Assembly: GCF_003148665.1 (NCBI RefSeq)
Contig: NZ_QGGQ01000010.1
Span: 62,001-126,000 of the forward strand
Reading direction: 5' to 3'
Origin: Maribacter polysiphoniae
GTDB lineage: Bacteria; Bacteroidota; Bacteroidia; Flavobacteriales; Flavobacteriaceae
Length of the DNA stretch: 64,000 nucleotides
Shown here: positions 25,188-37,540 of the stretch, piece by piece
Numbering within the stretch: the first letter of the stretch is position 1
Layout of the letters: every line of letters starts with the position of its first letter
Notes under the pieces: model-generated
What the model was told of the DNA's origin: nothing
What the model saw: only the letters and a program-made list of their open reading frames with translations
Database searches by the model: none
Translations under genes and position numbers: made by a program

Positions 25188-26723
25188 ATGCTTACAAAAG
25201 TTTTTGGAAGTGCCGTATTTGGGGTAGAGGCAACAACGATTACGGTAGAAGTGAATATTGACAAAGGAGTGGGGTATCATTTGGTAGGATTGCCCGATAA
25301 TGCGATTAAGGAAAGTAATTATCGAATTGCAGCGGCCTTATTGAACAATGGTTACAAGATCCCTGGAAAAAAAATCACCATCAATATGGCTCCGGCGGAT
25401 CTTCGCAAGGAAGGATCGGCCTACGACCTGACCCTCGCCTTGGGGATTTTAACTGCATCAGGACAGATAAAGGCCAACAACTTGGAGAAATACCTTATCA
25501 TGGGGGAACTGTCGTTGGATGGTAGCCTGCAGCCCATAAAAGGGGCATTGCCCATAGCCGTTAAAGCCAGGGAAGAAGGCTTTATGGGCTTTATTTTGCC
25601 GAAGGATAATGCCATGGAAGCTGCCATTGTTTCCGATTTACAGGTGTATGGCATTGAGAATATTAAAGAGGTCATTGATTTTTTTGATAAGGACGAACCC
25701 TTGGAACAAACGATAGTCGATACCCGGGCTGAGTTTTACAAAAAACTTGATTTTCCGGAATTTGATTTTTCAGATGTAAAGGGACAGGAAAGTATAAAAC
25801 GCTGTATGGAGATTGCAGCGGCTGGCGGACATAATATAATCTTAATAGGTCCTCCGGGGTCAGGAAAAACGATGCTTGCCAAACGATTGCCCTCCATATT
25901 ACCACCGATGACCTTGCATGAAGCCTTGGAAACGACCAAAATACATAGTGTTGTCGGGAAGATAAAGAATATGGGGTTAATGAGTCAACGCCCTTTCCGT
26001 AGTCCCCACCATACGATTTCGGATGTTGCCCTTGTCGGTGGCGGCGCCTATCCGCAGCCAGGGGAGATTTCCCTTTCCCATAATGGGGTGTTGTTCTTGG
26101 ACGAACTTCCTGAATTTAAAAGAGGGGTGCTCGAAGTCATGCGCCAACCTTTGGAAGATAGGGAAGTCACTATTTCAAGGGCGCGATTTACCGTAACCTA
26201 TCCCAGTAGTTTTATGCTCGTCGCCAGTATGAATCCTAGTCCAGGTGGTTATTTCAATGACCCGGATGCTCCCGTGACCTCATCCCCGGCGGAGATGCAG
26301 CGATATATGGGTAAGATATCGGGTCCACTTTTGGATCGTATTGACATCCATATCGAAGTAACGCCTGTACCGTTCGAAAAGCTTTCAGAAGACCGGAAAG
26401 GGGAGAGTAGTGTTGAGATACGGAAGCGGGTTACTGCCGCGCGGGAACTGCAGACCGAACGTTTTAAGGAGTTGGAAAACGTGCATTACAATGCCCAAAT
26501 GAATACCAAACAAATTCGGGAGTATTGTAAGTTGGATGAAGCTTCAAAACTGCTTTTAAAGAACGCCATGGAGCGTTTGAACCTTTCCGCCCGTGCCTAT
26601 GACCGTATTCTTAAAGTCGCCCGCACCATTGCGGATTTGGAAAATACCGACGCAGTCTCAGGAAACCATATTAGTGAAGCCATTCAATATAGGAGTCTTG
26701 ACAGGGAAGGTTGGTTGGGGTAG
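25188..26723 (+). CDS. yifB: YifB/ComM-family Mg-chelatase-like AAA+ ATPase
   Basis: A 511-residue AAA+ protein related to ComM, a helicase that promotes branch migration during natural transformation. The N-terminal Lon-protease-like ChlI domain (GVGYHLVGLPDNAIKESNYR, about 1-170) is followed by the Mg-chelatase ATPase domain with Walker A (LIGPPGSGKTMLAKRL, about residue 220), Walker B (GVLFLDELPEF) and PFRSPHHTISD. The C-terminal helical domain closes the protein (LNLSARAYDRILKVARTIAD). Its last 200 bp are repeated in decayed form at about 40487-40689, which makes this gene end the left border of the accessory island. Both copies are on the plus strand. Confidence 0.93.
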   Translation: MLTKVFGSAVFGVEATTITVEVNIDKGVGYHLVGLPDNAIKESNYRIAAALLNNGYKIPGKKITINMAPADLRKEGSAYDLTLALGILTASGQIKANNLEKYLIMGELSLDGSLQPIKGALPIAVKAREEGFMGFILPKDNAMEAAIVSDLQVYGIENIKEVIDFFDKDEPLEQTIVDTRAEFYKKLDFPEFDFSDVKGQESIKRCMEIAAAGGHNIILIGPPGSGKTMLAKRLPSILPPMTLHEALETTKIHSVVGKIKNMGLMSQRPFRSPHHTISDVALVGGGAYPQPGEISLSHNGVLFLDELPEFKRGVLEVMRQPLEDREVTISRARFTVTYPSSFMLVASMNPSPGGYFNDPDAPVTSSPAEMQRYMGKISGPLLDRIDIHIEVTPVPFEKLSEDRKGESSVEIRKRVTAARELQTERFKELENVHYNAQMNTKQIREYCKLDEASKLLLKNAMERLNLSARAYDRILKVARTIADLENTDAVSGNHISEAIQYRSLDREGWLG

Positions 26724-27070: not shown

Positions 27071-28003
27071 TTGCAAACTACAAAGGACATACCATTCCAT
27101 CATTATTCGGAGACGTACAAATATGTAAATATTACGGACGGTCATCCTGCCCTTTCAATTAATCCTGATTTCCCATTTGTAATGACGAGATTCGACCTGA
27201 TGGGTCGCAGGGCACAGGCCGAAATTCCCCATCGCCATGATTATTTTGAAATCATATTTTTGGAAGACGGCGCAGGACAACATATCATTGATTATGAATC
27301 ATACGAAATACAAACCCCTGCTTTTTATTTACTGTCTAAGGGACAGATACATTTTTGGAAATTGACAAAAGGATTACAAGGGAGTGTATTACTTTTTCCA
27401 AGGGAATTTCTGATCCCTCCTACAACCGCTTTGAATCAAGAAGGGGATTTGGCGATTTTCAATACGTTAAGTAAAGCGCCTTATGTTCTCTTAGACGATG
27501 ATAATTTTTCTAAAATACATGGATTATTAAAGAATATCAATGAAGAATTCTTGAGGCAATCCGACTGTAGTCTTTCCATGCTCCGTGCTTACTTGCATAT
27601 TTTACTGGGGAATCTGTTTCGTGTTTATGCCCACGGCCAGAAAAGCGATATTTTAGATAATACCAATGCAATGGTTCGTAAGTTCCGACAGTTGGTTTCT
27701 GAAAATTATCTTAGGGTCCGTTCCGTTCAAGAGTATGCCGATCTGATAGGAATCAGTGCGACGCACCTTAGGGATACCGTAAAGAATATTACTGGTTATT
27801 CCCCAGGGCAACTTATACGACAAGAACTGATTTTTGAAGCAAAAAGAAGATTGGCGAATACCGAATTAACAACGGCGGAAATCGGTTATTCCCTTAATTT
27901 TGAGGATACTTCCTATTTCAGTAGGTTTTTTAAGCGTGAAACCGGTGAATGTCCATCGCGCTACAGAGAGGAAATCAGAAAGAAATACAATATCAAGATT
28001 TAA
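27071..28003 (+). CDS. AraC-family transcriptional regulator
   Basis: A 310-residue regulator. The N-terminal cupin-like ligand domain has IPHRHDYFEIIFLEDGAGQH and QTPAFYLLSKGQIHFWK (about 40-150). The C-terminal double HTH (about 205-305) has YADLIGISATHLRDTVKNIT and IGYSLNFEDTSYFSRFFKRE, the second being the AraC signature. The start is TTG at 27071: an in-frame TAA lies just upstream, and the first ATG would delete 37 residues of the ligand domain. It heads the island, and three units downstream share a 30-bp box at fixed spacing from a -7 element, so it is the best candidate for their activator. Confidence 0.9.
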   Translation: MQTTKDIPFHHYSETYKYVNITDGHPALSINPDFPFVMTRFDLMGRRAQAEIPHRHDYFEIIFLEDGAGQHIIDYESYEIQTPAFYLLSKGQIHFWKLTKGLQGSVLLFPREFLIPPTTALNQEGDLAIFNTLSKAPYVLLDDDNFSKIHGLLKNINEEFLRQSDCSLSMLRAYLHILLGNLFRVYAHGQKSDILDNTNAMVRKFRQLVSENYLRVRSVQEYADLIGISATHLRDTVKNITGYSPGQLIRQELIFEAKRRLANTELTTAEIGYSLNFEDTSYFSRFFKRETGECPSRYREEIRKKYNIKI

Positions 28004-28030: not shown

Positions 28031-28094
28031 TTGAAAAGTGCCATACTTTCGGTAATCAGTGTCTTATCTACCAATTACAGTACCAATAACTTTG
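28031..28094 (+). promoter_or_regulatory. island promoter 1: shared activator box plus -7 element
   Basis: Box at 28031-28060, starting TTGAAAAGTGCCATA and ending CGGTAATCAGT, with the -7 element TAACTTTG at 28087-28094. The distance from box start to -7 start is 56 bp, the same as in the other two copies. No TTG is seen at -33, as expected of an activator-dependent promoter. It drives the AhpD-like gene at 28153. Confidence 0.75.
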
Positions 28095-28152
28095 TATTTG
28101 AATATATAGATGTTCAGGGCTTTTTTAAGTATGCCTTCTAAAAATAAGTATC

Positions 28153-28776
28153 ATGGAATCAAATAAATTAAAAGCTAAAATATTTACAACATCAACCTTT
28201 TACAGGCATTTAAAAATAGTGATTGCTAACTTTTCCGATGTGCTTAAATCCAGAAAAACCGGGAATGTCAATAAAGCGTTTCGGTCCAAGATAATGTTGG
28301 CAGTTACCCACGTGAATGGTTGTAGGTATTGTAATTATTTCCATACTAAAAATGCAATTGATGCAGGAACTTCGGAAGATGAATTAAAATCCATGCTTAA
28401 TGGGGAATTCGGCGAAATCGGTAGCGATGAATCCGTGGCACTTCTGTTTGCCCAACATTATGCTTACACCGATGGATATCCCGACAAGAAAACCTATGTA
28501 AAATTTGTTGAACACTATGGAAATCAGAAAGCAGCGGATATCATGGCTATGATACGACTGATCATGGTCGGAAATATTCACGGTATTGCATTGGATGCAT
28601 TGCAAAGTAGGTTGAAAGGAAGAAAAATGGAAGGCAGTAAATTTAAACATGAGATGGGAATCTTCTTTGGGATATTCGTAATGATTCCTTTAGCAATTGT
28701 GCAGGTATGGTTCGAAAAAATATTCTTAAAGGGTACCCATATGAAATTAAAAGGCATGCATTTTATACATAGATAG
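28153..28776 (+). CDS. AhpD-like / carboxymuconolactone decarboxylase-family protein with C-terminal membrane segment
   Basis: A 207-residue protein with the alkylhydroperoxidase AhpD core. The redox motif is NGCRYCNYFHTKNAIDAG (Cys57, Cys60 and His64), the CxxC-x3-H arrangement that gives thiol-dependent peroxidase activity in AhpD. The C-terminal part, which the core family lacks, has a hydrophobic helix (GIFFGIFVMIPLAIVQVW, about 173-190) and a basic tail, suggesting membrane attachment. It follows the AraC-family gene and has its own copy of the shared promoter box. A redox-protective role alongside the reductive dehalogenase is inference. Confidence 0.85.
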   Translation: MESNKLKAKIFTTSTFYRHLKIVIANFSDVLKSRKTGNVNKAFRSKIMLAVTHVNGCRYCNYFHTKNAIDAGTSEDELKSMLNGEFGEIGSDESVALLFAQHYAYTDGYPDKKTYVKFVEHYGNQKAADIMAMIRLIMVGNIHGIALDALQSRLKGRKMEGSKFKHEMGIFFGIFVMIPLAIVQVWFEKIFLKGTHMKLKGMHFIHR

Positions 28777-29080
28777 GGTAATCTACCCGCTAGTGTAATG
28801 AACCAAAGAGGTTTTGAAGGGTCCATTAAAAAATTTAAAAGTCTAAAAGAAGCATATAACAAGCGTGTATTTATATGCAATTATTTTCAGTAACTACTTA
28901 CGATCTTGGTAATCTAAGGAATTATAAGCCATAATAGCTAGAGGATCCTATTTCCATGGGCATTGAAAAGTGCCATATTATCCGTATTTAGTCTCTTATA
29001 TATCTAATTCTTCGCGAATACATTTGTACGGTACAAGCAAGTATTCACTAAGAAATAATATATAATTTGAAAGGAGAAAA
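28777..29080. other. intergenic region holding island promoter 2
   Basis: Apart from the box and -7 element listed separately I see no gene here. A purine-rich AAAGGAGAAAA sits 5-15 bp before the 29081 start, a clearer ribosome-binding site than is usual in this genome. Confidence 0.5.
28963..29026 (+). promoter_or_regulatory. island promoter 2: shared activator box plus -7 element
   Basis: Box at 28963-28992 (starts TTGAAAAGTGCCATA, ends CCGTATTTAGT) and -7 element TACATTTG at 29019-29026, 56 bp from box start. It drives the OsmC-like genes. It matches the copy at 31931 in 28 of 30 positions. Confidence 0.78.
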
Positions 29081-29929
29081 ATGAAAACAATAAAAAATGT
29101 GAACCTCATTACCGTACTGGTTGCTTTTTTAATTAGTGCTGGAACAGTTCAAGCTCAAAACAAAGAAGCTTATAAAGACTACAATGTAATATCAAGAAGT
29201 GATATTGGACCTAGGCCAGCGGGCTTTCAACCAACAAAAGCAGCACCTGCTAATGGTGCCTATAGTGAGAGTGTAGCTACGGCTTCAAGCAGGGTGTTGA
29301 ATGAAGAAACGGTCATGCTAAAAAAAGTGAACGTGCAGCCTATTGGCGAAAAAGAATTTAGCGCATGGGAATTATTATGTGATGAAGGTGGCCATACCTA
29401 CAAACAATCGGCTCCAAACCCATTAAGTTATATGGTAGGAGGTATTTCTTCCAGTTTGCTGACACGTGTGGAACAGGCTATAAGGGTTATGGATTTAAAT
29501 GTTGCCAGTGCAAAAGTTGAAGCGAAAGTGTTTTATAGATTCGATGAGCCTATGACACCGAATTGGAGAGGATATACCGATAAACTTATTGCCAATATCC
29601 TTATTGAAAGTGATGAACCTGCGGAAAAAATTGCAGTGATGAAGAAGATGGCCGTTCAGGCATGGGCTATTGGGGAATGTATTATGAATACTACTCCTGT
29701 GGATGCACAATTTGAGTATAATACCAAAATTTGGGAAACAGATTCTGCCAGGCCAGGGAAAGTAGCCGGTCCGGATTCGTTTGATAATGGTTTGAAAATC
29801 TCTTCACAAGGTAATAGCCCACAACCCGAAAGTTTTTCACTGGGTGCTGATGCCAGTATGGAGAAATTCACCGATCCATTTATTTTCGAAGTGGTAAGTG
29901 TTTCGGAATCCGCCAATGACACCCAATGA
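29081..29929 (+). CDS. secreted OsmC-like protein, N-terminal part of a tandem-domain gene ended by an in-frame TGA
   Basis: 282 residues: a Sec signal peptide (to QAQ at residue 26), a linker, and an OsmC-like domain (about 75-215) with NPLSYMVGGISSSLLTRVEQ in the place of the OsmC helix that normally carries the first redox Cys. That Cys is Ser here; one Cys remains in WAIGECIMN. The reading frame continues past the TGA at 29927 without shift into a second OsmC-like domain, and the next gene encodes the same two domains as one chain. The aligned residue at the stop is Arg (DTQ-stop-PYLHK against NSD-Arg-PYLNK), so a CGA to TGA change explains it. Function unknown; probably periplasmic. Confidence 0.8.
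   Translation: MKTIKNVNLITVLVAFLISAGTVQAQNKEAYKDYNVISRSDIGPRPAGFQPTKAAPANGAYSESVATASSRVLNEETVMLKKVNVQPIGEKEFSAWELLCDEGGHTYKQSAPNPLSYMVGGISSSLLTRVEQAIRVMDLNVASAKVEAKVFYRFDEPMTPNWRGYTDKLIANILIESDEPAEKIAVMKKMAVQAWAIGECIMNTTPVDAQFEYNTKIWETDSARPGKVAGPDSFDNGLKISSQGNSPQPESFSLGADASMEKFTDPFIFEVVSVSESANDTQ
29927..29929 (+). other. in-frame TGA interrupting the first tandem OsmC-like gene
   Basis: The frame before (from 29081) and after (to 30367) is the same and remains open on both sides. The TGA replaces the codon for a conserved Arg in the paralogue and is followed by C, the leakiest context for UGA. It is either a recent nonsense mutation or a readthrough site. Confidence 0.85.
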
Positions 29930-30367
29930 CCTTATTTGCATAAAGTGAAAATCAGGGCCATTCAGGAAAACTATCTGGCATGGGATATTTATACGGATGA
30001 CAGTCACGGATTTAAGGGTGTGGACAAAGCCCCGACTTCAAGTGATCTGTTTACGGCAGGCACTAGTTTATGCTTAATGAGTCAACTAACCGGGTGGTCG
30101 GAGTTTTATAAACATCAGGGTATTGAATTCGATGATTTCCGTGTGGAACACCAATTCAATTATCAAGTGGATAATTATATGACGCCATCGGCAGTAGGAC
30201 ATGTAGATGGGGTAACTACAAGGATCCTTATAAAAAGTGGGAATAGCGGGAAAGTAATGGGCGATTATGCCAGACATGCCCTTCGTACTTGTTTCGCTGT
30301 GGAAGCGGTTACAGGAGCAACAACAACGGAAATCGGTGTTTATCAAAACGGAAAACCCATTAAATAA
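29930..30367 (+). CDS. OsmC-like domain, C-terminal part of the interrupted tandem gene
   Basis: About 145 codons open directly after the TGA, in the same frame. If translated alone, the first start codon is TTG at 29936. The product is one OsmC-like domain with a Cys in LFTAGTSLCLMSQL and a second in ALRTCFAVEAVTGAT, matching the spaced cysteine pair of OsmC/Ohr peroxidases. It has no signal peptide of its own, so expression alone would leave it in the cytoplasm, unlike its paralogue. That argues it was, or is, the second half of the upstream gene. The next gene begins 17 bp later, preceded by a clear GAGGAGG ribosome-binding site. Confidence 0.72.
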   Translation, partial: PYLHKVKIRAIQENYLAWDIYTDDSHGFKGVDKAPTSSDLFTAGTSLCLMSQLTGWSEFYKHQGIEFDDFRVEHQFNYQVDNYMTPSAVGHVDGVTTRILIKSGNSGKVMGDYARHALRTCFAVEAVTGATTTEIGVYQNGKPIK

Positions 30368-30384
30368 TTGAGGAGGAAATAAAA

Positions 30385-31719
30385 ATGAAAAAAGGATATA
30401 AGATTAGCATAGCGATTGTAATCGCAGCAGCAGTAATAGCGGTCATCTTTTGGTTTTCAATGCCCAGTGAGCAAAGGCACATGATTTCATTCATGACACT
30501 AAACGGAGATAGTTATGATAATTATCAAGAATATCAGGTAATTGACCGTAATGATAAAGCCTTAGTGCCAACATCTTTTGAACCTGATGTCGCAGATACA
30601 ATTGCAGGAAATAATAATCGTAATGTAGTTGCAATCACCGAAATGGTAAAGAATGAAAATTCAAAGATGATGAAAAAAGCAATGGTACAAGCTACGGGTA
30701 TTGATGATTACACAGGATGGCATTTAATCGCTGACGAAGGTGCTAAGAAAGGAGCAAACCCTTTTGGACCTTCTCCCCTTAGTTATTACACCAGTGGTTT
30801 GGCAGCAAATCTACATACGCAAATTCTTAAGGCCGCAGAAGTCAAAGGTGTTGAATTAGATAATGTTAAAGTAGAAATATTAAATAAATTTCGTTGGAAT
30901 GAAATGATGTCTCCTGAAGGTGCTGGATTTCTAGATGTAACAACTACAAATATAATTATAAAAAGTAAAGTGTCTAAAGAACTAATTGGGGAAATAAAAA
31001 AAATGGCTCTAAATTCATGGACTGCAGGTGAAGCTATCCGAAATGAAACAGTGATTGAACCTACTTTAATTGTAAATAATAACGACTTTGAAGATTATCA
31101 TGCCACGTCAGGAACAACCCTTTCTGAGATATCTATTGTTGATGGACTTAAATTAAGTTCTATTACTAAGGTATCCATAAAACCGGAGTATTTAAAGCCT
31201 GTTGTTAAGGACGAAGGAGATATTGGCTTTGATGCCTTGGCGAATATGGAGTTTGAAATATTTGCAATCTCTGAATCTACCGAAAACAGTGATAGACCCT
31301 ATTTGAACAAAATCACGCTGTCAACACCTTCGTCAGAAACTTGGGAAATATACGCAGATGAATTTATGGGAGCTAATGACCGTCCTGTAGCACCAACTTC
31401 TTTAGAATACTTTACGGCAGGAACTGCTTTATGCTTAACGTCACAAACAACATTGGTTAGCGCAATGATGGGCTTGGACTATAATGACTATCGTATTGAA
31501 AACCAAATGGATTACAGACAGGAAGCTATAGATTCTACCAACATGGCTAGTTATACTGATACCGTTCATTCATACATTATAATTGAATCAAATGAATCTC
31601 AAGAACGATTAAAAACCTTCTATAATAAATCTTTATCGTTGTGCTTTGCGGGCGAGGGACTAAAAAATGCAACGGATATGAATACCAACTGCTATTTAAA
31701 CGGCGAACTTGTAAAATAG
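30385..31719 (+). CDS. membrane-anchored protein with two tandem OsmC-like domains
   Basis: 444 residues with an N-terminal anchor (ISIAIVIAAAVIAVIFWF). Domain 1 (about 95-220: GPSPLSYYTSGLAANLHTQI) has lost both OsmC cysteines. Domain 2 (about 310-444) keeps them: YFTAGTALCLTSQT and NKSLSLCFAGEGL. It is the intact paralogue of the interrupted gene just upstream, in the same order and probably the same transcript. Codon use is visibly more AT-rich than in flanking genes, suggesting separate acquisition. OsmC proteins reduce organic hydroperoxides in the cytoplasm; an exported tandem form is unusual and its substrate is unknown. Two hairpins follow the stop. Confidence 0.85.
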   Translation: MKKGYKISIAIVIAAAVIAVIFWFSMPSEQRHMISFMTLNGDSYDNYQEYQVIDRNDKALVPTSFEPDVADTIAGNNNRNVVAITEMVKNENSKMMKKAMVQATGIDDYTGWHLIADEGAKKGANPFGPSPLSYYTSGLAANLHTQILKAAEVKGVELDNVKVEILNKFRWNEMMSPEGAGFLDVTTTNIIIKSKVSKELIGEIKKMALNSWTAGEAIRNETVIEPTLIVNNNDFEDYHATSGTTLSEISIVDGLKLSSITKVSIKPEYLKPVVKDEGDIGFDALANMEFEIFAISESTENSDRPYLNKITLSTPSSETWEIYADEFMGANDRPVAPTSLEYFTAGTALCLTSQTTLVSAMMGLDYNDYRIENQMDYRQEAIDSTNMASYTDTVHSYIIIESNESQERLKTFYNKSLSLCFAGEGLKNATDMNTNCYLNGELVK

Positions 31720-31734
31720 TCTTTTTGTAAGTAT

Positions 31735-31813
31735 CAGAGCAAGCATTTCCTGCTCTGGTTGAATTACAAAAATAGTAAGACCTATTTGGGATTATCTTCC
31801 TAAATGGGTCTTA
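31735..31813 (+). terminator. double hairpin after the tandem OsmC-like gene
   Basis: First stem: CAGAGCA (31735-31741) with TGCTCTG (31751-31757). Second: an imperfect stem from TAAGACC (31776-31782) to GGTCTTA (31807-31813), extended inward by ATTTgGGA/TTCCtAAAT and followed by TGTGTTTTT. The second looks like the functional terminator. Confidence 0.7.
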
Positions 31814-31930
31814 TGTGTTTTTAAGAAATAAGTCAAGGCTTATAGAGGTAAAACACTTAATAGAAGCAGTTTTAAATAAGGAGCAAATTCACCCTGGTAA
31901 AACCCTTCGGAAAACGTAATATCCAAATCG

Positions 31931-31994
31931 TTGAAAAGTACCATATAATCCGTATTTAGTTAATTATTTGCAGTAAATCAATAAGTTAAATTTG
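31931..31994 (+). promoter_or_regulatory. island promoter 3: shared activator box plus -7 element (rdh operon)
   Basis: Box at 31931-31960 (starts TTGAAAAGTACCATA, ends CCGTATTTAGT) with the -7 element TAAATTTG at 31987-31994, again exactly 56 bp from box start to -7 start. It lies directly in front of the RdhA gene. Confidence 0.78.
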
Positions 31995-32022: not shown

Positions 32023-33480
32023 ATGGCAAAGTCAAATAAGAAGTATCACTCCACCGTTGGCCGAAGGGATTTCATGAAAAAGTTGGGTGTAGGGGCCGGT
32101 GCCCTAGGATTGGGGGCTGCCGGGTTTGCGGCATCGGGAATCGGTGCTGAGGGATTTAAAGATCTTGATGAAATGATGGCTTCCCCATTAGCTGAACGCA
32201 AATTACCGTTCTGGGTCAAAGAAGTGGATGAACCTACGGTAAAAATAGATTGGGAGAATATGGAAATATTCGAAGGTCCTGAAAAGACATTGTTCAATCC
32301 TGCTTCTTGGGAGAATCCCCAAGATTATAAAGATATCTATGATAGGAACATTGCATCGACAAAAAAAAATGTACAAGAAAATGTTCCCGGACTTTCGTTA
32401 AAGGATAGGGCACTGGCTGATGCCAACTGTTGGGGTTGGGGAGGACGTTCCGGTGCTGATTTGGCTCCACCTTGGGCCGGTACTGAAGTGAAGGCCAATC
32501 CAATGTGGGAACACCCAACCATGTTTTATACCCCTGAAGATTATGGGGTGCCTAAATACAATGGTACTCCCGAAGAAAATTCCAGAATGCTTAGGACTGC
32601 AGGAAGGATTATGGGGGCTTCGGATATGGGATTTGTAAAACTCGACGAAAGAACGAAAAAATTACTCTGGGGCAAGATCAAATTTGAAAACGTAGAGAAA
32701 GGATATGCAGAGGTTGAAAAAAACAAATATGTATTGCCGAACAAAGATTTATGGGCCATATGCTCCGTAATCCCACAATCGTTATGGATGCAGCAATTTA
32801 CCGAACGTATGAGCTGGGCATCGAGTAATACGATGAGTTATTCAAGAGCCAATATCTACGGGAATAGATTGAGTGTGTTTCTAAGAGGATTGGGATACCA
32901 AGCTTATGGCGGGGATACGGAATCCGTAGGACGATTGGTAGGTTTTGGTGTCATGTCGGGAATGGGGGAATACGGTAGAGCAGGTATTCTTGTGAGTCCA
33001 CAATATGGTACCAACATAAGAACGGTAATGGTAACGATTACCGACTTGCCGTTGGCTGTGACAAAACCAATAGATGCAGGTATTTCCAAATTTTGCGAAA
33101 CTTGTAAAAAGTGTGGTGAAATGTGTCCTTCGGGAGCAATAAGTATGGAGGATAAGCCATTCTGGGGAGGTAATACTGCCAGTCAGGCAAAAGGAATTAA
33201 AGGCTGGTATATGGATAATAAAAAATGTTACTCCTACATGTTAGGGGGCGAACCGGATTGTAGTCGTTGTCAAACCGTATGTCCGTTTACAAAATTCGAT
33301 GATGCGGTAATACATGATCTAATCAAATTATCGATCGGGTCTACCTCTAAATTAAATGCCGCGATCCGAAAAATGGATGATGTATTTGGCTATGGTAAGG
33401 AGCCTGATCTGAGCAAAACAGCATGGGATCTTGATCCAATGGATATTCCTGTATATGGTCTGGATAAATCACGTTCGTAA
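32023..33480 (+). CDS. reductive dehalogenase catalytic subunit (RdhA-like), Tat-exported Fe-S/corrinoid protein
   Basis: 485 residues. A twin-arginine signal (GRRDFMKKLGVGAGALGLG, about 13-31) directs a folded cofactor protein across the inner membrane. The middle (about 180-350) is the RdhA catalytic region (MLRTAGRIMGASDMGFVKL, SRANIYGNRLSVFLRGLGY). The C-terminal 2[4Fe-4S] ferredoxin part has CETCKKCGEMCP (Cys358, 361, 364, 368) and C-X10-C-X2-C-X3-C (Cys402, 413, 416, 420). RdhA enzymes use a cob(I)amide to remove halide from organohalides. The related queuosine enzyme QueG lacks a Tat signal and RdhB/RdhC partners, so RdhA is favoured. The substrate cannot be inferred. It is first in a five-gene operon under the shared activator box. 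Confidence 0.87.
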   Translation: MAKSNKKYHSTVGRRDFMKKLGVGAGALGLGAAGFAASGIGAEGFKDLDEMMASPLAERKLPFWVKEVDEPTVKIDWENMEIFEGPEKTLFNPASWENPQDYKDIYDRNIASTKKNVQENVPGLSLKDRALADANCWGWGGRSGADLAPPWAGTEVKANPMWEHPTMFYTPEDYGVPKYNGTPEENSRMLRTAGRIMGASDMGFVKLDERTKKLLWGKIKFENVEKGYAEVEKNKYVLPNKDLWAICSVIPQSLWMQQFTERMSWASSNTMSYSRANIYGNRLSVFLRGLGYQAYGGDTESVGRLVGFGVMSGMGEYGRAGILVSPQYGTNIRTVMVTITDLPLAVTKPIDAGISKFCETCKKCGEMCPSGAISMEDKPFWGGNTASQAKGIKGWYMDNKKCYSYMLGGEPDCSRCQTVCPFTKFDDAVIHDLIKLSIGSTSKLNAAIRKMDDVFGYGKEPDLSKTAWDLDPMDIPVYGLDKSRS

Positions 33481-33497
33481 AACTAAAAAATGATATT

Positions 33498-33806
33498 ATG
33501 AGATTAATAAGTTGGATTTGGTTTTGGTATGTTTTGGTCGGATTTATAATGGGGGGTGGCGCCGTATTGATTTGGCACATTCTAAAAAGTGTTCACCTAA
33601 AATTGGTCTGGTACGAGTGGATTTTAATGATACTGGTTTATTTTGTTTTTATGTTGATGTGTCAAACATTTATAGCATCATTTCAAGAGTTTGAACCGAA
33701 AGCTGCATGGTTTTCATTGATTTTTATGGGAATCCCGGTACTCATAATGGGGGTTGTCTTATTCAGGTCTCTAAGAAAAAGATATACTAAAAAACAAGTC
33801 GATTAA
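33498..33806 (+). CDS. RdhB-like membrane anchor of the reductive dehalogenase
   Basis: A 102-residue, three-helix membrane protein (helices about 5-25, 38-58 and 72-92). The segment WYEWILMILVYF followed by FQEFEPKAAWFSLIFMGIPV matches the RdhB pattern, in which the E-x-EPKAAW loop on the outer face is thought to dock RdhA. It starts 17 bp after rdhA, as is normal for rdhAB pairs. This is strong contextual support for calling the upstream gene a respiratory-type reductive dehalogenase. Confidence 0.82.
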   Translation: MRLISWIWFWYVLVGFIMGGGAVLIWHILKSVHLKLVWYEWILMILVYFVFMLMCQTFIASFQEFEPKAAWFSLIFMGIPVLIMGVVLFRSLRKRYTKKQVD

Positions 33807-33849: not shown

Positions 33850-35034
33850 ATGATCTATAACAAAACAAGTTCAAAGAAAATTGAAGCTAAGTTGGCTATT
33901 GTTTCCATAGCGGTGATTATAGTCGCTTGGTTTATCGGAGGCCAATTGGAAGTAGCTGATATTGTTTCCACCATTAAGGCGAAAATGCCAGAAATCGTTA
34001 AACTTGAGGAAATAGGAAAAGTATCATACAAGATTTATAATGCTGAAGAAGAACCTTTAGGGTATGTAACCATAGAATCGTCGATGGGGTACGGCGGTCC
34101 ACTGCAAATGGCAGTAGCTGTTGATAACAAAGGGAAGATATTCGATCTGGCGGTAATCAATTCAAAGGAAACACCATCGTATCTGGATAAGGTTTTAAAA
34201 ACGGATTTTATAGAAGGACTTTTAGGTAAGAATTATGATGATGAATATTCGATAGGCAATGAGGTTGATGCTGTATCAAGTGCAACGTATTCTTCTAGGG
34301 CCATAGTCGAAGCCACTAAAAAAGGGAATAGGTTTGTTGCGGCCAAGGTACTGGGTTATGAAATTCCTAAGGATGAAACACCCGCACTTCGGTTCGGTGT
34401 TCAGGAAATAGTATTGTTATTACTATTTGCCGTTGGGTATTTCGCCCATAAAAACACCTTTAAGTATAAAAAAATGGCGCGGTGGGGGACAATGCTCATT
34501 GGTTTATTCGTAATCGGTTTTTATTACAATCAACCTTTTACACTTTCGATGTTTAACCAATTACTTTTAGGATATTTTCCTCCGTTGTATTCACAATTAT
34601 ATTGGTATTTGTTATTGGGGGGTGTATTCCTTGTATTTACAGTGGACAATAAAAATCCGTACTGCTCTTGGTTTTGTCCTTTCGGGGCCGCACAGGAATG
34701 TATGGGTGTGATTGGTGGTGCAAAACACAGACCAATAGGAAAATTTAAGATTGTATTGAAATGGACTTTGAGGATTCTGGTCCTGTTGGCGATTGTGATC
34801 GCATTGTTATTGAGAAACCCCGGTGTTACCAGTTATGAGGTATTCGGAACCTTGTTTAAATTAACGGGAAGCAATTTTCAATTTGCAATATTGGGAATAG
34901 TACTGGTTTCATCCTTGTTCATTAAAAGGCCTTGGTGTAACTACCTATGTCCCTTAGGTCCTGTCACCGAACATTTTACCTATATAAGAAAAATGATAAT
35001 GGATAAATGGAAAAGAAAAAAAGTAAACGTTTAA
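33850..35034 (+). CDS. RdhC/NosR-like membrane flavoprotein with 4Fe-4S motifs
   Basis: 394 residues. One N-terminal helix (about 14-32) precedes a periplasmic FMN-binding domain (about 60-165) whose attachment motif is DAVSSATYSSRAIVEA. Then come about five to six helices and two CxxxCP motifs, CSWFCPFGAAQE (Cys272, Cys276) and CNYLCPLGPVTE (Cys363, Cys367), as in NosR, RnfG/NqrC-like and RdhC proteins. It would carry electrons from the quinol pool or flavin to the exported RdhA. It lies 43 bp after rdhB. The gene end overlaps a small membrane-peptide gene by 28 bp. Confidence 0.85.
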   Translation: MIYNKTSSKKIEAKLAIVSIAVIIVAWFIGGQLEVADIVSTIKAKMPEIVKLEEIGKVSYKIYNAEEEPLGYVTIESSMGYGGPLQMAVAVDNKGKIFDLAVINSKETPSYLDKVLKTDFIEGLLGKNYDDEYSIGNEVDAVSSATYSSRAIVEATKKGNRFVAAKVLGYEIPKDETPALRFGVQEIVLLLLFAVGYFAHKNTFKYKKMARWGTMLIGLFVIGFYYNQPFTLSMFNQLLLGYFPPLYSQLYWYLLLGGVFLVFTVDNKNPYCSWFCPFGAAQECMGVIGGAKHRPIGKFKIVLKWTLRILVLLAIVIALLLRNPGVTSYEVFGTLFKLTGSNFQFAILGIVLVSSLFIKRPWCNYLCPLGPVTEHFTYIRKMIMDKWKRKKVNV

Positions 35035-35158: not shown

Positions 35159-36082
35159 ATGGAAAATAGTAAGTGTTTAAAGCAAGGGTTATGTCTTTTG
35201 GGATTGATGTTGCTTGTTATCGGGACAACAATATCGTATGGTCAAGAGACCGGACATTATACCCCGGGTGTGCAAGGGATTAAAGTTGGGACACTTCCTC
35301 CTCCCGGATTCTATTACATCATGCATAATGTATTTTATGCTGCAGACACCTATTATGATGGGGATGGAAATAAATCCGATATTGATTTTGATGTGAATGT
35401 GTTCGCCAATGTCCACCGGTTTCTTTATGTATGGGAAGATGTAATGTTCGGTGCCAATTACGGGGTACATGTACTCATACCTACTACCTATACGGATATT
35501 CGTATTGGTGCATTTGGTATAGATGATAGCAAATATGGTATTGGGGACATCGTAATTGAACCATTTTTATTGTCATGGAACAAATCAAGATATGATATAT
35601 CCGTGGCCTTAGCGGCAATTGCACCAGTAGGAAGTTATGATAGTCATAATGCCGCATCGCCCGGGAAAGGTTTTTGGTCTGGGATGTTGACTTTTGGTGG
35701 GACCTATTATTTCGATTCCAACAAATCATGGCATGCTTCTATTTTAAATAGATATGAGGTACATAGTGGGAAAAAGGATTTTGATGTAACCCCTGGGGAT
35801 GATTTGACCTTTGAATGGGGGATTGGCAAAACGATCGTTTCCAAAGCCATTTATAATGTGGGGGTTTCTGGGTATTCGCATTGGCAATTATCCAACGATA
35901 AGGGAAGCGATGTTTTATATGATCCAGAGCTGCATGATAAAATCTTTGCTGTCGGACCTGAAGTTACTTGTTATATACCTCAGGCGAAATTGAATCTCGA
36001 GCTTCGAAGTCAATTCGAATTCGGGGCAATAGACAGATCTCAAGGTTCAAAGGTGTGTTTATCCTTATTCAAGAACTTCTAA
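35159..36082 (+). CDS. outer-membrane protein of the phenol-pathway MetA/SphA-like porin family
   Basis: 307 residues with a signal peptide (cleaved near SYGQE, about residue 29) and alternating beta-strand pattern to a C-terminal Phe (LSLFKNF), typical of outer-membrane barrels. The start of the mature part, GVQGIKVGTLPPPGFYY, is the signature of the family called MetA-pathway of phenol degradation, found in aromatic-degradation operons. It lies last in the rdh operon, 38 bp after the small peptide gene. Its presence suggests uptake of a hydrophobic, perhaps aromatic, substrate for the reductive dehalogenase (inference). Confidence 0.8.
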   Translation: MENSKCLKQGLCLLGLMLLVIGTTISYGQETGHYTPGVQGIKVGTLPPPGFYYIMHNVFYAADTYYDGDGNKSDIDFDVNVFANVHRFLYVWEDVMFGANYGVHVLIPTTYTDIRIGAFGIDDSKYGIGDIVIEPFLLSWNKSRYDISVALAAIAPVGSYDSHNAASPGKGFWSGMLTFGGTYYFDSNKSWHASILNRYEVHSGKKDFDVTPGDDLTFEWGIGKTIVSKAIYNVGVSGYSHWQLSNDKGSDVLYDPELHDKIFAVGPEVTCYIPQAKLNLELRSQFEFGAIDRSQGSKVCLSLFKNF

Positions 36083-36328: not shown

Positions 36329-37027
36329 TTAGCTCAATATTTCTTCTAAAGTGATATAGTCACCAACCTTTCCGGTCATGTTCTCTGCATCCGTATTTAC
36401 AGGAAGGGTCTTTTTACCGGGTCTCCATCCAGCAGGACAAACTTCACCGGTTTTACTTGCATGCTGCCAAGCCTGTACTTGCCTTAGAAATTCGTTTACA
36501 TTTCGTCCCACGGAATCAGCCTGAACTTCTTGGGCTACACAAATACCATCGGCATTAAACAGGAAACGACCTCTTAAGGCAATCCCTTCTTCTTCTATTA
36601 AGACACCAAAAGCACGACTAACTTCTTGGTTGGTGTCAGCGCCTATCGTAAGTTTCAATCCCTTTAATATTGGTTCTGTTTCCACAAACCTTTTATGTGA
36701 AAATTGTGAATCCACGGAAACAGCCAAAATTTCTACCCCTAATTTTTGAAAATCATCATAATGGGCATTCATTGCTGCAATTTCTGTTGGACAGACAAAT
36801 GTAAAATCGGCAGGATAAAAACATACCACTGACCATTTATCTTTATAATCCTCACTTGATACCGTTTTGTAATGCCCCGTTTTAGCATCATAGGCATCCA
36901 TTGTAAATTCTGGCATTTGCTGCCTTACCATTGTTGAGCTCATAGTTTCTTCTTCTTTTGTATTCGTACTTAAATTATTATTTTCCATGATTTTCTTTCT
37001 CGGCTTTACACCACTTGCACATCCCAT
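36329..37027 (-). CDS. 2-Cys peroxiredoxin with N-terminal extension
   Basis: 232 residues. The peroxiredoxin core begins near residue 36, with peroxidatic Cys79 (ADFTFVCPTEIAAM) and resolving Cys197 (GEVCPAGWRPGKK). The AhpC-type arrangement is intact. The first 35 residues (MGCASGVKPRKKI, then a polar stretch) are an extension; later in-frame Met codons (MENNN and MSSTM) are alternative starts. It is downstream of the Fur-family regulator on the same strand, 135 bp away, so peroxide- or metal-responsive control is plausible. It differs from the 8.5-kb peroxiredoxin in sequence and context. Confidence 0.9.
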   Translation of the reverse strand: MGCASGVKPRKKIMENNNLSTNTKEEETMSSTMVRQQMPEFTMDAYDAKTGHYKTVSSEDYKDKWSVVCFYPADFTFVCPTEIAAMNAHYDDFQKLGVEILAVSVDSQFSHKRFVETEPILKGLKLTIGADTNQEVSRAFGVLIEEEGIALRGRFLFNADGICVAQEVQADSVGRNVNEFLRQVQAWQHASKTGEVCPAGWRPGKKTLPVNTDAENMTGKVGDYITLEEILS

Positions 37028-37162
37028 AATTATTTATTTTAAAAATTCTTATTCTTTATATCCTATATGGTCAATATGATTCTCTTTCGATTTCCATAAA
37101 GTATTTAGTGTTTTATATTTTTGGGAGCGACCATTCAACATAATTTGGCTCCCACTAATATG

Positions 37163-37540
37163 TTAGTTGTTTTTGCAAAGGGCACATACTCCGGTTATCC
37201 AAAAATTTACATTTTCCACCATATAATCCTTAGGGACTTTCACTTCAATTTCGTTGTGCATACATTCTACTTTGCCGCATTGGTCACATTTAAAGTGATA
37301 ATGGTTGTGGTAATGGATTTCACTACAATTAAGACATTTGAAGTAATAGAATTTACCGTCATTGGATATCACTTTATGAATAATGCCATCATCTAGAAAA
37401 CCCTGTAGTATTCTATAAATGGTAACGCGGTCGAACTGTGGCAATTGGTTTTCAATCTCTTCTGCCTTTAAACCATAGTTATCGGAACATTTGAGGCAGT
37501 TCAATACAGCCTTTTTGGATTTAGTCTGTCTTTTTTTCAT
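37163..37540 (-). CDS. Fur-family metalloregulator (Zur- or PerR-like)
   Basis: A 125-residue regulator. The N-terminal winged helix (about 1-75: NYGLKAEEIENQLPQFDRVT, IYRILQGFLDDGIIH) is followed by a metal-binding dimerisation domain with KCLNCSEIHYHNHYHF, CDQCGKVEC and C-terminal CALC, giving the structural zinc site and a His-rich sensing site. It is divergent from the TonB receptor gene, whose promoter contains a TGTAACAACGTTACA palindrome overlapping both upstream regions. Control of an outer-membrane receptor favours Zur; the neighbouring peroxiredoxin would favour PerR. Sequence alone does not decide. Confidence 0.87.
   Translation of the reverse strand: MKKRQTKSKKAVLNCLKCSDNYGLKAEEIENQLPQFDRVTIYRILQGFLDDGIIHKVISNDGKFYYFKCLNCSEIHYHNHYHFKCDQCGKVECMHNEIEVKVPKDYMVENVNFWITGVCALCKNN

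Follow-up and report, generated by a model that had tools for sequence, protein, structure and literature searches.

A conserved box at a fixed distance from the -7 element and a candidate AraC-type activator in a reductive dehalogenase gene cluster of Bacteroidota

At the pBAD promoter the operator of the activator AraC ends at the -33/-35 region, and this layout is resembled by a conserved box which we describe here for three promoters of a reductive dehalogenase (rdh) gene cluster of Maribacter polysiphoniae. The cluster lies in a stretch of 64,000 nucleotides (contig NZ_QGGQ01000010.1, positions 62,001 to 126,000), which we call the window. For AraC-family regulators of Bacteroides, motifs consisting of 21-bp direct repeats have been described (PMC3870299). 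The rdh regulators that have been characterised are of the CRP/FNR type, two-component systems or MarR regulators; GlxR, HrcA, SigW and more are given as other regulators expressed near reductive dehalogenase genes, and the word "AraC" is absent from the main text of this source (PMC12090745). An AraC-family gene family is listed among those exclusive to dehalogenating Sulfurospirillum (PMC8865925). Reductive dehalogenase genes are reported from 112 Bacteroidota genomes, with no isolate shown to respire organohalides (PMC12090745). Our analysis suggests that the AraC-family protein encoded at 27071 uses the box as its operator and would be a dedicated class-II activator travelling with a horizontally moved rdh cassette; we put the probability of this reading at roughly 0.8.

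The box and its distance to the -7 element

The original prediction held that three promoters share a 30-bp box at an identical distance from the -7 element TAnnTTTG. All three boxes match TTGAAAAGTRCCATANNNTCSGTAWTYAGT with 0 mismatches, a pattern with 0 matches in 100 dinucleotide shuffles, and the distance is indeed exactly 56 bp, counted from start to start, at each promoter (Table 1). The conserved box is thus real; its size, however, is about 36 bp and not 30, since the CTTA at positions 33-36 is largely kept too. It begins with TTGAAAAGTRCCATA, followed by TC at positions 19-20, GTAWTYAGT at 22-30 and the CTTA just mentioned. Within the box the motif AGTnnCnTA is repeated directly at a distance of 21 bp. 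When the columns of the matrix were compared at 18 repeat offsets, 21 bp was the best one and was equalled at this offset by 27 of 2000 column shuffles, which lends modest support to the box being a 21-bp direct-repeat operator of the AraC type.

As the original prediction had suggested, we searched the whole genome of the window (5,129,962 bases in 30 contigs) for the box at up to 3 mismatches and recovered only the three copies in the cluster. A composite pattern of the two half-sites and the -7 element (at most 3 mismatches) matched the 3 cluster copies at 0-1 mismatch and 4 further places at 3 mismatches. With 12 matches for the reversed-pattern control, we do not claim any further member of the regulon. 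Viral contigs contained no exact match to a box pattern, and carriage by a virus was rejected.

Related loci were collected by scanning contigs with the RdhA protein by short peptide patterns, a search that is not necessarily exhaustive and yielded nine loci: Lutibacter citreus (RdhA identity 87%), L. oricola (88%), Labilibaculum filiforme (86%), a Labilibaculum metagenome-assembled genome (MAG; 82%), two Desulfoluna (71%), two Chloroflexi MAGs (64%) and Shewanella algicola (69%, incomplete). The four Bacteroidota loci (two Lutibacter, two Labilibaculum), together with their extensions, contain ten additional boxes, which brings the total to 13 boxes in 5 genomes, and the five remaining loci contain no box at a threshold of at least 18 of the 27 consensus letters. 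In 12 of the 13 boxes TAnnTTTG is found at exactly +56 and the thirteenth has TAATTTCG there, one letter off; the background frequency of the element in the five sequences, both strands included, is 194 of 283,808 positions (0.07%). When each genome's stretch was scored by a matrix built from the other four genomes (283,088 positions, both strands), the 13 boxes reached 28.2-50.9 bits, and no other position exceeded 13.0 bits. A looser pattern applied to seven whole genomes (own, four relatives and the two Desulfoluna) recovered 12 of the 13 boxes, all of them inside the clusters, and one extra match with 3 mismatches outside the cluster in the Labilibaculum MAG (G003:C10). The box that escaped this pattern (L073:10656) is too diverged for it and was identified in the consensus-letter scan of the loci. 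In the two Desulfoluna genomes, searched whole, neither the box nor an orthologue of the AraC gene was found.

We then compared the promoters of different genes with each other (66 pairs). Mean identity is 0.89 for box positions 1-15, 0.69 for 19-30, 0.83 for 33-36 and 0.83 for the -7 element; as the column table was built from the 12 boxes selected for TAnnTTTG at +56, its -7 columns are not independent, whereas the count of 12 in 13 is. The spacer at 38-56 (0.32) is at the level of the upstream region (0.31), and the downstream positions 65-90 are little above it (0.39). The spacer is therefore kept in length and free in sequence, as is expected if the bound activator touches RNA polymerase. 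In Flavobacterium psychrophilum the element TAnnTTTG is positioned at -12 to -5 (PMC9723704), and transferring this placement lets the box span about -68 to -33 and predicts leaders of about 54 nt (AhpD-like gene), 50 nt (OsmC-like genes) and 24 nt (rdhA). The original prediction also stated that a -33 motif is absent, which is true for the 11 of 13 boxes without TTG at positions 29-56; the rdhA promoter of the window, however, has TTG at position 38 and the Lutibacter promoter L073:12670 at position 41. By their sequence the promoters fit class-II activated sigma-A promoters, with a fixed distance to the -7 element and a putative operator in place of the -33 element, the latter being counted on the 11 promoters free of TTG, with the rdhA promoter of the window among the two exceptions.

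Boxes scattered at random places without TAnnTTTG would speak against a regulatory role. In 395 genomes of the class the looser pattern (up to 3 mismatches) had matches in 76 genomes, and at 0-1 mismatch only the three copies of the own genome were found. The matches with 2-3 mismatches number 88 in 75 other genomes compared with 44 for the reversed-pattern control, about twice as many. Twenty-nine of the 88 (L043-L071) were inspected: TAnnTTTG at +56 is present in 0 of 29, and 28 of 29 fall within open frames of 150 or more codons, as compared to 0 of the 13 true boxes. In the part inspected the excess over the control is therefore coding sequence, and codon usage is its likely cause. With copies at 0-1 mismatch confined to the own genome among these 395, and the 29 look-alikes inspected lacking the -7 element at +56, the original prediction withstood this search.

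The AraC-family protein as candidate activator

The protein encoded at 27071 contains a C-terminal helix-turn-helix (HTH) domain of the AraC type (PF12833, 73 bits, cut-off 33.6; PF00165, 44.1 bits, cut-off 26.6) and an N-terminal ligand-binding domain (PF02311, 28.2 bits, cut-off 21.1). Its predicted structure, with a mean predicted local distance difference test score (pLDDT) of 46.1, was too poor to use. Membership in the HpaA family (TIGR02297) was rejected, the score being 112.8 bits with a cut-off of 274.65. Each of the four relatives has one orthologue of the gene, 75-80% identical and on the same contig as the boxes, so that orthologue and boxes occur together in 5 of 5 genomes; ranked by E-value, the match that follows (6.6e-33) is 30% identical. 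Among the orthologues the DNA-binding domain is 88-92% and the sensor domain 70-74% identical.

At an E-value of 1e-60 the orthologue was found in 1 of 395 genomes of the class (the own genome), 1 of 397 of the L. citreus family (L. citreus) and 1 of 378 of the own family (the own genome), with scoring limited to the top five or six first-look candidates of each genome and with the draws of 397 and 378 apparently overlapping largely. RdhA (E-value 1e-100) is likewise found in 1 of the 395 class genomes. With RdhA and the AraC gene equally rare in this draw, the samples test rarity more than independence. Among plasmid records, all 51 that match the AraC protein do so at less than 60% identity (31-34% among the five matches listed), and carriage on a plasmid was rejected. 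Autoregulation was discarded as well, since in all 5 genomes the 350 bp ahead of the AraC gene contain no box.

In three of the five clusters a second AraC-type gene stands directly after the first (L072:3317-4057, L074:3826-4566 and L075:3589-4359). This second gene has no match at an E-value of 1e-40 in the genome of the window, and in L. citreus only one of 45% identity on another contig. The window genome with 3 boxes and L. citreus with 4 boxes thus lack it in the cluster, and it was excluded as the common reader of the boxes. That one activator, most likely the AraC protein, serves all three promoters, as originally predicted, is now backed by the 56-bp spacing in other genomes, the co-occurrence in five genomes, the repeat offset and the exclusion of the second AraC gene.

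The transfer of the cassette is suggested by a comparison of identities. Lutibacter and Labilibaculum belong to different orders, and the 16S identity between the own genome and L. filiforme is 84.8% (16S genes were recovered in 2 of 5 genomes). RdhA is 87-88% identical to Lutibacter and 82-86% to Labilibaculum, and the AraC protein 78-80% and 75-76%, respectively. For a protein beside the cluster (25188-26723, of housekeeping type and ComM-like by eye) the values are 83-84% and 68%. The small drop of RdhA identity across orders points to horizontal transfer of the rdh cassette together with its regulator and operator among Bacteroidota.

A different transcription factor, encoded elsewhere or beside the AraC gene, might read the box, given that binding by the AraC protein is a prediction and that three of the five clusters offer a second AraC-type gene. 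We regard this as improbable because the second gene is missing from two clusters that hold 3 and 4 boxes, and because a global regulator should have other sites, whereas the pattern hits in the five genomes all lie in the clusters, bar the one in the Labilibaculum MAG; none of the nine related loci has a match to the Fur-like gene of the window. The position of the box, with its end at the -33 region, would also allow a bound AraC protein to block RNA polymerase. However, promoters that mostly lack TTG suit a need for help, and the AraC-type regulator of the rhamnose genes of Bacteroides thetaiotaomicron is an activator (PMC3870299), so that repression, or action in both directions, is in our opinion quite unlikely. 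Finally, the presence of multiple copies within one cluster could suggest that the box is the leftover of a repeat duplication, for example of a small mobile repeat, and has no regulatory role. We consider this highly improbable, since the similarity is confined to the box and the -7 element, with the upstream region and the spacer at background identity and the downstream region little above it, and since all 13 boxes are oriented toward a gene start 76-260 bp downstream (the OsmC-2 start in L072 is approximate).

Several observations weigh against the AraC protein as dedicated activator. With only five genomes, the co-occurrence of box and AraC gene goes back to a small number of independent events. 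In none of the 5 genomes is the AraC gene itself preceded by a box within 350 bp, and the box precedes the AhpD-like gene in 1 of 3, OsmC-1 in 2 of 4 and OsmC-2 in 2 of 3 of the genomes carrying each gene. The 21-bp repeat is imperfect, 752 of 2000 column shuffles reaching the maximum at some offset, and a TTG occurs near -31/-28 in 2 of 13 promoters.

The AraC protein as class-II activator would work as follows. A dimer would occupy the region from roughly -68 to -33 by contacting two direct half-sites, spaced by about 21 bp and on the same DNA face, and the downstream half-site would substitute for the -33 element. The housekeeping sigma factor would still recognise TAnnTTTG, with strong firing expected only when the activator is bound. 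A small molecule likely switches the protein on via its N-terminal domain, and the bound activator would then switch on rdhA and its partner genes, and in the window the AhpD- and OsmC-like genes too. The rdh genes would move between Bacteroidota as a unit with regulator and operator. The Desulfoluna strains with the 71% RdhA homologue (three RdhAs in all) debrominate and do not dechlorinate organohalogens (PMC7031245), and from this debromination and from HpaA as the best named family the inducer is probably a halogenated phenol or a related aromatic compound. One may speculate further, although we consider it less likely than not, that this is a mobile Bacteroidota rdh cassette that brings along an AraC-type sensor for natural (brominated) phenols as well as a private operator code and is switched on by its substrate wherever it lands, that AraC proteins form a further class of rdh regulators, and that the OsmC-like proteins are dedicated helpers.

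Genes of the cluster

The features of the cluster are collected in Table 1. RdhA is a reductive dehalogenase by the family criteria, and dehalogenating activity is predicted; it has a twin-arginine translocation (Tat) signal (TIGR01409, 21.2 bits, cut-off 16.7) and ferredoxin-type 4Fe-4S motifs (Fer4_7 and Fer4_16), and it is related to the solved PceA structure 4uqu (E-value 5.4e-38) and to other reductive dehalogenase structures. The list of controlled genes given in the original prediction, an AhpD-like protein, tandem OsmC-like proteins and the rdh operon, stood as far as the regulon is centred on the reductive dehalogenase, rdhA being preceded by a box in 5 of 5 genomes and the sole gene boxed in all five; the membership of the AhpD- and OsmC-like genes varies among the relatives. 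Further boxed genes encode a TonB-dependent receptor and a metallo-beta-lactamase-fold protein (L. oricola) and a DUF4405 membrane protein (L. citreus), and a third OsmC-type gene present in three relatives has no box.

Table 1. Features of the rdh gene cluster in the window
Feature	Position	Strand	Remarks
AraC-family regulator, candidate activator of three promoters	27071-28003	+	310 amino acids; HTH_18 (PF12833), HTH_AraC (PF00165), AraC_binding (PF02311)
Box 1	28031-28066	+	36 bp; upstream of AhpD-like gene; leave-one-genome-out score 46.3 bits
-7 element TAACTTTG	28087-28094	+	56 bp from box 1 start
AhpD/CMD-like protein	28153-28776	+	207 amino acids; PF02627 34.9 bits, cut-off 23
Box 2	28963-28998	+	36 bp; upstream of OsmC-like genes; leave-one-genome-out score 49.3 bits
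-7 element TACATTTG	29019-29026	+	56 bp from box 2 start
OsmC-like gene 1 (OsmC-1)	29081-30367	+	likely signal peptide (by eye); in-frame stop at 29927-29929
OsmC-like gene 2 (OsmC-2)	30385-31719	+	444 amino acids, two OsmC domains; PF02566 53.7 bits (cut-off 27.5), NF041052 128.4 bits
Terminator-like hairpin, 17 pairs	31775-31814	+	between OsmC genes and rdh promoter; consensus scan (10 found, 6.7 expected in shuffles, hence not proof)
Box 3	31931-31966	+	36 bp; upstream of rdhA; leave-one-genome-out score 44.1 bits
-7 element TAAATTTG	31987-31994	+	56 bp from box 3 start
rdhA, reductive dehalogenase catalytic subunit	32023-33480	+	TIGR02486 254.8 bits (cut-off 160.35); PF13486
Small membrane protein, rdhB position	33498-33806	+	53-81% homologues after rdhA in nine related loci; no family hit
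FMN-binding (flavin mononucleotide)/polyferredoxin membrane protein (NosR/RdhC-like)	33850-35034	+	PF04205, PF12801
Outer-membrane MetA-like protein	35159-36082	+	PF13557; 75-85% homologues after rdhC in L005, L006, L012

The OsmC-like genes do stand in tandem, but the first is broken by an in-frame stop which its uninterrupted relatives (L004, L005, L012) do not have and which separates its two OsmC-type halves. Both parts of OsmC-1 match NF041052 below the cut-off of 95 (65.5 and 55.3 bits); Pfam gives no hit for the first part and 27.0 bits for the second taken alone, just under the PF02566 cut-off of 27.5. The stop may reflect a pseudogene, a split into two peptides or an error in the assembly. 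Selenocysteine at the stop was rejected, as the same relatives have an ordinary residue other than cysteine there. OsmC-2 begins 17 bp past OsmC-1 and in the window may be read from the OsmC-1 promoter. In each cluster (L072, L073, L074, L075 and the window) there are one to three OsmC-like proteins of about 420-470 amino acids, and the three full-length ones that were tested have two OsmC stretches each.

In L. oricola an AhpD-like and an OsmC-like part are fused in one open frame of 634 amino acids (L012:2427-4331). L. filiforme has two extra genes between rdhB and rdhC (L004:11956-13318), by eye an oxidoreductase (230 amino acids) and a cytochrome-like membrane protein (157 amino acids). 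An AhpC-type peroxiredoxin and a Fur/PerR-like regulator adjoin the cluster of the window on the minus strand (36329-37540); neither has a match at an E-value of 1e-5 in the nine related loci.

Comparison with known systems

A dedicated switch with a defined operator would offer a direct route to the natural substrate of the dehalogenase, via whatever activates the AraC protein in a reporter strain. The OsmC-like, AhpD-like, metallo-beta-lactamase-fold and TonB receptor products probably accompany the dehalogenase, each in one or more of the genomes.

HpaA, the 4-hydroxyphenylacetate regulator and by name a regulator for a phenolic compound, is the best-scoring named family of the AraC protein, which lies far under the family cut-off and is not a member. 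With the Desulfoluna rdh clusters the window has in common the RdhA of 71% identity and the order rdhA-rdhB-rdhC; unlike the window, these clusters have sigma-54-dependent, LuxR and MarR regulators (PMC7031245), and neither the box nor the AraC orthologue. Like the known rdh regulators, the AraC protein is encoded beside rdhA and presumably responds to organohalides, whereas its family lies outside the three characterised classes. In the open-licence literature, with most subscription papers outside the coverage, we found no description of AraC control of a reductive dehalogenase and no account of this regulon, which apparently is undescribed, as had been supposed. With the class-II activators of the AraC/XylS family (AraC at pBAD, RhaR of Bacteroides) the proposed system shares a two-domain protein with an AraC-type HTH and a direct-repeat operator with a 21-bp period; it differs from them in having an operator sequence of its own and in targeting a reductive dehalogenase and not sugar genes. 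The proposed mechanism is thus a textbook one, and the target is new as far as the literature searches reach.

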